Shown here: positions 5,103-14,986 of the stretch, one piece after another | How positions within the stretch are numbered: position 1 is the stretch's first letter | Layout: the number at the start of each line of letters is the position of its first letter | Assembly: GCA_903893485.1 (NCBI GenBank) | Contig: CAITMK010000001.1 | Location: forward strand, 1 to 46,559 | Length of the DNA: 46,559 nt | Source of the DNA: Candidatus Magasanikiibacteriota bacterium | GTDB lineage: Bacteria > Patescibacteriota > Patescibacteriia > Magasanikbacterales > 2-02-FULL-50-9b | Direction: 5' to 3' | The notes under the pieces: model-generated | What the model was told of the DNA's origin: nothing | Databases searched by the model: none | Seen by the model: the letters and a program-made list of their open reading frames with translations, nothing else | Program-made: the position numbers and the translations under genes

Positions 5103-5231
5103 AATGTTTGCGCTACTGATTCAATCCCGTTGGCCTGTAGTGATACGGACCAGGGATGAGCAGCGCGTAGACCAAAATATACCAGAAAAAAATAAGCCTG
5201 GCAAGTATTTTTTCTATGGTTTTACGGTGAC

Positions 5232-5346
5232 TCTCTCGGGGGTCATCCGCAGGCGCGGCGGCCCGGAGTCTTGGCCGCGCCAAGACGAGCCGCGTCGAGG
5301 CCGAGCGCAAAATCCCGGCGAGGATTTTGACGCGACCCCCAAGAGA
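5232..5346. repeat. Structured intergenic repeat, copy 1
   Basis: Outer inverted repeat GGGGGTC(5238-5244)/GACCCCC(5334-5340) extended by TCTCT/AGAGA; three internal stems; 60-nt core at 5249-5308 aligns without gaps to copy 2 at 9090-9149. Confidence 0.85.
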
Positions 5347-5361
5347 AACTCCGGAAAATCA

Positions 5362-5390
5362 TTGACACTTTTTACCAATTTTTTTATACT
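5362..5390 (+). promoter_or_regulatory. Putative sigma70-type promoter for a short RNA upstream of rel
   Basis: TTGACA(5362-5367), 17-bp spacer, TATACT(5385-5390). Confidence 0.65.
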
Positions 5391-5396
5391 GGTACC

Positions 5397-5480
5397 AGTG
5401 ATACGGACCGGCAAAATCACCAATTGTTGGCCCAAAAAAGTCCTGCTTGCAAAACTTGCTCGCACGGGCTTTTTTGCTTT
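5397..5480 (+). ncRNA. Candidate ~85-nt small RNA or rel leader ending in a terminator-like hairpin
   Basis: Starts just after the promoter at 5362-5390; ends at AAAAAAGTCCTGCTTGC...GCACGGGCTTTTTT. A second promoter (TTGTCA-N17-TATGCT) lies after the hairpin, before the rel start. Confidence 0.4.
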
Positions 5481-9058: not shown

Positions 9059-9202
9059 AGTTTGTTTTTGTTTTGAGAAGGGGTCATCCGCAGGCATTGC
9101 GGGCCGGTGCCGCGCACCATGCGCGGCGAGCAATGCCGAGGCCGAGCGCAAAATCCCGCCGGGGATTTTGACGCGACCCCTGAACAAAATAAAAACAAAC
9201 TT
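9059..9202. repeat. Structured intergenic repeat, copy 2
   Basis: GGGGTC(9080-9085)/GACCCC(9175-9180) with extended A/T-rich flanking inverted repeat (AGTTTGTTTTTGTTTTG.../...CAAAATAAAAACAAACT); core 9090-9149 folds like copy 1. Confidence 0.85.
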
Positions 9203-10180
9203 TTAATTTGTCGGCCACGTAAAATTATCAAACGTCCACTCCGCAAGCATCGCGGTTTCCGTGAATCGTTTATAGACATCCCCCGCACCCATCACCACCA
9301 CGCGAATTTCATGTCCATCATCACTCCGAATAAGCGAGGCAAAATTATATCCGGCTTCATCGGTGTAACCCGTTTTTCCACCTTCAATCGTTGCCGCCTT
9401 CAGCGGCACCGCACCAGTTAAAACCCAATCAGTTGCTTTCACGGTTTTTTTCTTTCCGCTTTCAAGTTCGTGAATCGAAACTTTTTCTTCAACACTTGTC
9501 ACTTTAATTTGCGCGGATGAAAGCGCAATTTTAATTAAACGCGAAACATCTTTTGCGCTCCCTACATTGTGCGCCGATAAACCCGTTACATCTTCAAAAT
9601 GCATGGTCGGCATTCCCAAATCTGCGGCGCGCTGATTCATAAGCACTGCAAATTGTTCGGGTGTAAAACCACTTGCCTGCACCAGCGCATTCATTGCGGT
9701 ATTCAATGAACCAACTAAACCCGCGGCAAATAAATCATGCAATGTATATGTTTCGCCAGCAACCAAATCTTTTGATGAATCAACCACCGCAGAATTTGAA
9801 ATGGTTGTCGTTGCGTTCCAATTCGTAATTTTTTCTGTAAGTAAAAGCGCGGTCATTAATTTTGTAACCGAAGCCAGCGCTTGTGGCTGATCTGCATTTT
9901 TTGAAAAAATAATTGCATCGCTCGCCGCGTCTTCAACAATCACGTGCGGCGCGGTTAATGTTTTTGTAAATTGCGCACCTGATAAATTAATCGGCGGCTT
10001 TGGTGGTTGATGCGCTTCGGGCAACACATTTTTGAGCGGCGCCGCGGCAATATCAGAAATACGATCAAGCGCGTTTTGAGAATTACTAACACGCGACGCG
10101 GCAACTGCGTGCCCCGCCTGCTGACCGCCAATAACACCGATTACAGCGGCAACTGCGATGATGGCAACAAAGCTTCGCAT
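9203..10180 (-). CDS. D-alanyl-D-alanine carboxypeptidase (serine peptidase S11)
   Basis: SVTK active site (ASVTKLMTALLL), SLN-type motif, KTGYT motif, N-terminal signal-like segment. Start overlaps the scpB 3' end by 40 nt. Confidence 0.88.
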   Translation of the reverse strand: MRSFVAIIAVAAVIGVIGGQQAGHAVAASRVSNSQNALDRISDIAAAPLKNVLPEAHQPPKPPINLSGAQFTKTLTAPHVIVEDAASDAIIFSKNADQPQALASVTKLMTALLLTEKITNWNATTTISNSAVVDSSKDLVAGETYTLHDLFAAGLVGSLNTAMNALVQASGFTPEQFAVLMNQRAADLGMPTMHFEDVTGLSAHNVGSAKDVSRLIKIALSSAQIKVTSVEEKVSIHELESGKKKTVKATDWVLTGAVPLKAATIEGGKTGYTDEAGYNFASLIRSDDGHEIRVVVMGAGDVYKRFTETAMLAEWTFDNFTWPTN

Positions 10181-13693: not shown

Positions 13694-14986
13694 TTACGGT
13701 GTTAAACGGTTCAAAAGGCGTGCAAACGGAATCGCCTCGCGAATATGCTCAAGCCCACAAATCCAAGCAACTGAACGTTCCAAGCCAATCCCAAAACCCG
13801 AATGTGGTACAGAGCCAAAACGACGTAAATCCAAATACCACTGAAACATTTCAACCGGCAGATTGTGCGACCTGATACGCTCTTCCAAAAGTGCCAAATC
13901 GTCGATACGCTGCGAGCCGCCAATTACTTCGCCGTAACCTTCTGGGGCCAACATGTCGGCATTAAGCACATAGCGTGGATCCGCTGGATCTGGTTTCATG
14001 TAAAACGATTTTACCTCAACCGGATAATGCGTGATAAAAATCGGACGATCGTATTGCTTGGTCAAAATTGTTTCGTCGTCGGCACCCAAATCATCGCCGT
14101 CTTTAATATCGCTACCAAGTTTTTGAAGCTGTGCGATTGCATCGGTGTAGCGAATGCGTGGAAAATTTCCTTCCGCTGTTTTTTGGAGTGGTGCGATATC
14201 GCGCTCTAATGTTTTTAAATCTTCAGCTCGGCGTTCGAGCACGCGCTTCACTACAAACACGGTCATGTCTTCTTGAAGTTGCATGTTTTCGTTTTGATCC
14301 ATGAAACTTGCTTCGGCTTCAAGCATCCAAAATTCGGTAAGATGACGACGCGTTTTTGATTTTTCGCTGCGAAATGTTGGACCAAAACAATACGTACGTT
14401 TAAGCGCTGACGAAGTCGCTTCTTGATACAACTGCCCTGACTGTGAGAGATACGCGAGTCCGTCAAAATATTTTACTTCAAACAAATCAGTGGTGCCTTC
14501 GCATGCATTTGGGGTAAAAATTGGTGAATCCATCAAAATAAATTTGCGTTCATACAAAAATTCACGAAGCGTAAATTCAATTTCGCTGCGCACACGCATG
14601 ATTGCTTCTTGGCGCGATGATCGAAGCCAGAGATGACGCTCATCCATTAAAAATTCAACGCCGTGTTCTTTTTTTGAAATGGGAAATTCTCCCGAGGTTG
14701 CAGAAATAAATACACATGACAAACCAGTGAGTTCAAAACCCGATGGGGCGCGAGGTTCTGCTTTAACTACGCCAGTTACCATAACTGACGATTCCATGGT
14801 CATCGCTTCGAGTGTGGCCCATGTTTCCGCCGACACTTCATTTTTTGAAAACACAATTTGCACGCGGCCCGTGCCATCGCGAAGTTGCAAAAAATAAATC
14901 GATCCGCTTGAGCGAAAATTGTACGCCCACCCAGAAAGTTCAACCGTTTCTCCGATTTTTTGTGATAATTCAGCAATGTCCAACAT
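13694..14986 (-). CDS. asnS: Asparaginyl-tRNA synthetase
   Basis: GWAYNFRSSGSIYFLQLRDG, FRSEKSKTRRHLTEFWMLE, SGFGIGLERSVAWICGLEHIREAIPFAR. Confidence 0.93.
   Translation of the reverse strand: MLDIAELSQKIGETVELSGWAYNFRSSGSIYFLQLRDGTGRVQIVFSKNEVSAETWATLEAMTMESSVMVTGVVKAEPRAPSGFELTGLSCVFISATSGEFPISKKEHGVEFLMDERHLWLRSSRQEAIMRVRSEIEFTLREFLYERKFILMDSPIFTPNACEGTTDLFEVKYFDGLAYLSQSGQLYQEATSSALKRTYCFGPTFRSEKSKTRRHLTEFWMLEAEASFMDQNENMQLQEDMTVFVVKRVLERRAEDLKTLERDIAPLQKTAEGNFPRIRYTDAIAQLQKLGSDIKDGDDLGADDETILTKQYDRPIFITHYPVEVKSFYMKPDPADPRYVLNADMLAPEGYGEVIGGSQRIDDLALLEERIRSHNLPVEMFQWYLDLRRFGSVPHSGFGIGLERSVAWICGLEHIREAIPFARLLNRLTP

Follow-up and report, generated by a model that had tools for sequence, protein, structure and literature searches.

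On balance, we favour the reading that the two intergenic repeats in the window (the whole stretch analysed, 46,559 nt of a contig from a Candidatus Magasanikiibacteriota bacterium) are copies of a non-autonomous, protein-free and probably mobile element of about 100-150 nt, which would be recognised as a folded single strand and moved in trans by a putative enzyme. This reading is supported by many copies per genome, covariation, an asymmetry favouring the + strand, and insertion at tRNA ends with a 21-nt duplication. Against it count the lack of a candidate enzyme and the fact that a functional RNA would also give conserved internal loops and an excess of G.T pairs. In the proposed mechanism, the + strand would fold as a single strand into an outer helix (P1) and two hairpins, P2 with a GNA/GA internal loop and P3 with a bulged A, and a putative trans-acting enzyme would recognise the folded strand and move the element. 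Apparently, this family of small mobile DNA elements in Patescibacteria is undescribed. No description was found in the literature outside subscription journals and bioRxiv, and Rfam returned no family at its gathering cut-off except tRNAs. Patescibacteria have tiny genomes with few recognised mobile elements; a folded element that is multi-copy, occurs phylum-wide and has clean empty sites would amount to a major repeat class so far unannotated there.

Fold, copy number and distribution of the family

Copies 1 (5239-5339) and 2 (9080-9180) align without gaps at 89% identity (Table 1), and a 19-nt conserved piece occurs twice in the window versus 0.01 times expected from shuffles. The two stems of the preliminary description, A (5252-5259/5289-5296 in copy 1) and B (5268-5275/5279-5286), pair in both copies, with one G.T pair (5253/5295) in copy 1. 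The whole unit exceeds these stems and also comprises an outer helix (GGGGTC/GACCCC and beyond) and an AAAATCC/GGATTTT hairpin; the three-way fold of P1, P2 and P3 is common to the family. The folding z-scores of the two copies were -3.1 and -4.4 as RNA and -4.7 and -8.1 as DNA, and ranged from about -3 to -8 across RNA and DNA folding of either strand.

Table 1. Parts of the two copies in the window
Feature	Position	Strand	Evidence
Copy 1, P1 5' arm (locus-specific outer part and GGGGGTC)	5224..5244	+	fold, arm comparison
Copy 1, junction and hairpin P2	5245..5304	+	covariation
Copy 1, P2 elements: GCA/GA internal loop 5249-5251/5297-5298 between stem CC/GG and stem A; second internal loop between stems A and B		+	covariation
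Copy 1, hairpin P3 GCGCAAAATCC...GGATTTTG(A)CGC, bulged A5330	5305..5333	+	folding, covariation
Copy 1, P1 3' arm	5334..5358	+	arm comparison, fold
Copy 1, covariance-model R3 match, 106.3 bits	5234..5338	+	
Copy 2, P1 5' arm (AGTTTGTTTTTGTTTTGAGAAGGGGTC), GA/GA internal loop inside	9059..9085	+	arm comparison, fold
Copy 2, junction and hairpin P2 (stem A 9093-9100/9130-9137, stem B, GCA/GA loop)	9086..9145	+	sequence, covariation
Copy 2, hairpin P3, bulged A9171	9146..9174	+	folding, covariation
Copy 2, P1 3' arm, end adjoins stop codon of convergent dacA-like gene (9203-10180, -)	9175..9201	+	
Copy 2, covariance-model R3 match, 112.8 bits	9075..9179	+	

A near-consensus promoter (TTGACA-17-TATACT, 5362-5390) lies between copy 1 and the relA/spoT gene, and a short hairpin with a T-run 3' of it, around 5436-5480, may be an attenuator.

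Three covariance models were built: R1 from P3 of 12 members, R2 from tRNA-associated members and R3 from ten copies of the window's genome; E-values of the short-calibrated models are rough. R3 found at least 14 copies in the 948-kb genome and 12, 14, 16, 9 and 5 copies in five relatives of the same family. The search of the genome and its relatives that the preliminary description called for thus bore out its repeat family, which two isolated hairpins would have contradicted. R2 matched 56 of the 389 genomes of the phylum. Because R2 and R3 each find members of the other type weakly, at the right place and on the right strand, the window type and the tRNA type form one superfamily; known elements accounted for all seven R2 matches in window-type loci and, at the other loci, for 19 of 20 R3 matches.

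A degenerate pattern based on one P3 variant was run over 85,488 species genomes and gave 23 loci. Every locus that showed the complete fold carried a Patescibacteria label (Yanofskybacteria, Magasanikbacteria, Kerfeldbacteria, Berkelbacteria, Yonathbacteria and others); absence elsewhere refers to this one variant. Nine of the 23 matches, and the sole match of the exact pattern in viral contigs, which lay inside a gene, were apparently chance or in-gene matches; two-mismatch matches in relatives (L003, L004) were likewise chance matches inside genes. Plasmids queried with a Kerfeldbacteria copy and phages queried with a window copy gave no match. In the Kerfeldbacteria genome G124 (L020, L024, L028, L034 and L035), a constant-arm version is present as several amplified copies that are near-identical, some of them at contig ends, and additional diverged copies lie at L020:7224-7383 and L024:192-305. 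Metagenome assemblies probably break at these repeats, and several copies are found at contig ends. Within the window's genus, many copies occur in closely spaced divergent pairs (the first on the minus, the second on the plus strand) whose members are separated by 57 to about 800 nt (L109 9182-9495, L242, L235, L234 and L232).

Covariation and the folding strand

Among ten copies of the window's genome, 97.7% of cells were paired and 20 of 31 pairs showed two-sided changes, a level reached by none of 500 shuffles. With 70 copies from the window's genus and family, all 31 modelled pairs showed two-sided changes and 95.5% of cells paired; the covariation score was 0.667, compared with 0.194 for shuffled and at most 0.113 for slid versions. 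In the tRNA type, 24 of 26 pairs had two-sided changes. Model alignments are biased towards structure, and the ungapped stems agree in result. The original suggestion that selection acts on a fold, of RNA or of a single-stranded DNA hairpin, is strongly supported, and the hundreds of copies offer a natural covariation set.

The constant positions are the unpaired ones: conservation is 94-100% in the GNA/GA internal loop of P2, 80-96% in the P3 loop and 90-99% at the bulged A. Part of what had first been listed as nearly invariant, the AAAATCC/GGATTTT segments, is a stem that varies and covaries, and the true invariants are these loops and the bulge. Since G.T cells exceed A.C cells in the two sets compared (49:12 and 41:20, the former of 2081 cells), the strand read here (+) is the folding strand. 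Wobble intermediates are scarce (49/2081 cells, 2.4%), which suits single-stranded DNA at least as well as RNA and suggests that the folded molecule may be single-stranded DNA.

Insertion at tRNA ends and the surroundings of the window type

In other lineages, the element lies 3' of a tRNA gene in the same orientation, and the last 21 nt of the tRNA recur as the 3' arm of the element, giving a 21-nt direct duplication from C56 to the tRNA end. Thirty-six of 49 tRNA-type hairpins lie within 200 nt downstream of a tRNA on the same strand, and in 33 of the 49 the 3' end matches the upstream tRNA with at most three mismatches. The insert length clusters at 108-134 nt (median 127). Copies were found at many isoacceptors and can stand in tandem, with units of 157 bp seen; at three of the four tRNA-Ser loci examined, the copy agrees with the version of the tRNA end that the host itself carries. 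The genomes are metagenome assemblies, one per species, so intergenic comparisons are between species. Among sister species of one family, G745 and G761 have a filled tRNA-Pro(cgg) site and an empty tRNA-Arg(cct) site, and G579 and G589 show the opposite. The native flank adjoins the tRNA directly when the site is empty and the 21-nt copy when it is filled; at tRNA-Pro of G761, the 151 nt between copies correspond to a 130-nt insert. Because filled and empty sites occur in sister species, insertion did happen in the tRNA type, with a clean empty site and an insertion polymorphism. These sites mark tRNA ends as a recurrent landing place.

The insert usually opens with a terminator-like hairpin, owing to which the tRNA probably still terminates before the fold. 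An inverted pair of 6-8 bp, GANTCG/CGANTC, closes the hairpin and covaries with the host tRNA. A tRNA-specific guide in the outer 5' arm was rejected, as the match was no better than that to other tRNAs (p=0.2) and only the inner 6-8 pairs covary. The window's own genome contains a look-alike at L112 (G000:C3) 14640-14860, where a terminator-like hairpin and a folded unit come after tRNA-Glu, and the 3' end of the tRNA recurs (CGATTCCCCTTGGGACTA) about 127 nt downstream; the plan is that of the tRNA type, yet R2 does not match. Other inserts of 127-129 nt with a tRNA-end copy and a different or decayed interior were seen at L213 8635-8860 and L095 17095-17320, at tRNA-Ala(cgc) and tRNA-Glu(ctc), respectively.

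Among copies from the window's genus, the P1 helix is specific to its locus. In 64 of 67 copies, each flanking arm complements its partner far better than it does arms from elsewhere in the set; from copy to copy the arms mostly bear no relation, with between-copy scores near the shuffled level. Arm pairing ends abruptly, most commonly 21-26 nt past the model end, and a tandem GA/GA mismatch often lies between the constant inner arm and the unique outer arm. Direct repeats around window-type copies were not above control. A 13-nt repeat, AGTGATACGGACC (5139 and 5397), around copy 1 is native; a similar pair occurs in G001 without copy 1. As no direct repeat accompanies the window type, any insertion chemistry that it has must differ from that of the tRNA type. 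In congeners, the flanking genes of the topA-relA and dacA neighbourhoods are present and copies 1 and 2 are missing at that place. Copy number and these congeners suggest that the window's own type may also move. Mobilisation in trans, proposed in the preliminary description, is supported by filled and empty sites for the tRNA-inserted members and may hold for the window type; the empty sites for which it proposed a check in relatives are clean for the tRNA type and amount, for the window type, to absence in diverged congeners.

The insertion process may itself re-match P1 at every site, so that later compensatory mutation would not be the only cause. One speculative version, which we hold with considerable doubt, is that the outer stem is rebuilt from the target at each insertion: the core would be portable, and an arm of ~20 nt would be copied from, and complementary to, the new site by an enzyme unrelated to known transposases. 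The arm of the tRNA type is exactly the last 21 nt of the tRNA. If this were true, the core would amount to a folded strand that travels and has its address re-written.

The strongest rival, though an unlikely one, is that the copies are structured RNAs, that is, transcribed 3'-end structures of neighbouring genes (terminators, RNase III or exonuclease barriers, or small RNAs) whose 20-24 bp P1 is kept by compensatory mutation. It would account for the elaborate conserved internal loops, the fold energies, the fixed length of P1 and the position of the element: in 39 of 61 scorable copies, the 3' side adjoins a convergent gene at its 3' end, as in copy 2, whose arm stops beside the dacA-like stop codon, and tRNA ends lie 26-30 nt away. 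However, the flanking convergent gene would transcribe the strand opposite to that favoured by the G.T/A.C asymmetry, and the low share of G.T cells speaks against RNA. Moreover, the copies carry no T-run after the hairpin, as an intrinsic terminator would, whereas a terminator-like hairpin already precedes the tRNA-type element, and insertion is seen at filled and empty sites.

Candidate enzymes and comparison with known systems

The mobile-element reading points to a putative recombination or transposition enzyme, which could be searched for by co-occurrence. Y1_Tnp was found in 5 of 23 genomes and was absent from most carriers; none occurred in the window's genome, G561, G598, G707, G528, G589 or G011. 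The REP/TnpA-REP (Y1) mechanism that the preliminary description had considered is therefore not borne out. Tyrosine recombinases usually number one or a few per genome, those typed being only Xer-like, and none was detectable in carriers G598 and G665. Cas1 was absent from 27 of 28 carriers and relatives tested. Y1 transposases, tyrosine recombinases and Cas1 were accordingly rejected as the mobilising enzyme on absence from carriers or Xer-like typing.

The elements resemble REP/REPIN sequences mobilised by TnpA-REP (RAYT, Y1 HUH) in being short folded intergenic repeats, many per genome, moved in trans and forming a single-strand hairpin with a bulge. Unlike these, they have a three-way junction instead of a single 20-40 nt hairpin, no constant GTAG-like foot tetranucleotide in the consensus, a locus-specific outer helix and, in the tRNA type, the tRNA 3'-end duplication. 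Bacterial MITEs are likewise protein-free, multi-copy and 100-200 nt long, and the Kerfeldbacteria amplify the whole palindrome; in contrast, terminal inverted repeats common to copies occur here only in G124, no matching autonomous element was found, and the internal loops are conserved. Casposons and CRISPR integration (Cas1) share insertion at tRNA 3' ends with duplication and differ in the 21-nt duplication, the missing Cas1 and an element of only ~128 nt.

An improbable alternative takes P1-P2-P3 as an attC-like folded site and the tRNA T-arm (CGANTCC) as an attI-like acceptor, with cargo cassettes stacked behind tRNA genes. Like integron cassettes, the elements combine a folded strand and a short inverted core, here the GANTCG/CGANTC pair covarying with the host tRNA, with serial insertion at one platform, and apparent cargo exists in G589 and G669. 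However, the unit is fixed near 128 nt and usually cargo-free, it has no GTTRRRY core, its platform is the T-arm, the window type has arbitrary arms, and, in the six typed carriers, the integron integrase TIGR02249 fell far short of its cut-off. The cases with cargo resemble later, separate islands, for which reason a cassette with cargo was rejected. In G669 (L201 10211-15190), tRNA-Lys and the hairpin are 4.9 kb apart, the island between them containing a large serine recombinase (602 aa, weakly XisF/CcrB-like); in G589 (L095 8900-14090), genes (DUF4145, HNH and unknown ones) spanning 3.6 and 1.35 kb separate the tRNA and two tRNA-Gln-end hairpins, each preceded by a tRNA-Gln-like end remnant (...CAGCCA).

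That the hairpins are relics of an old spread, kept perfect by quasi-palindrome correction in replication without present function or mobility, is very improbable: nearly all changes are full Watson-Crick swaps, as it predicts, but unpaired loop bases are 94-100% conserved across very different stems and presence varies between congeners.

In E. coli, the tRNA gene tyrT is followed by tandem rtT repeats, every unit of which closes with a copy of the 3' end of the tRNA; the elements described here differ from them in their fold, their occurrence at many tRNAs and their phylum-wide distribution.
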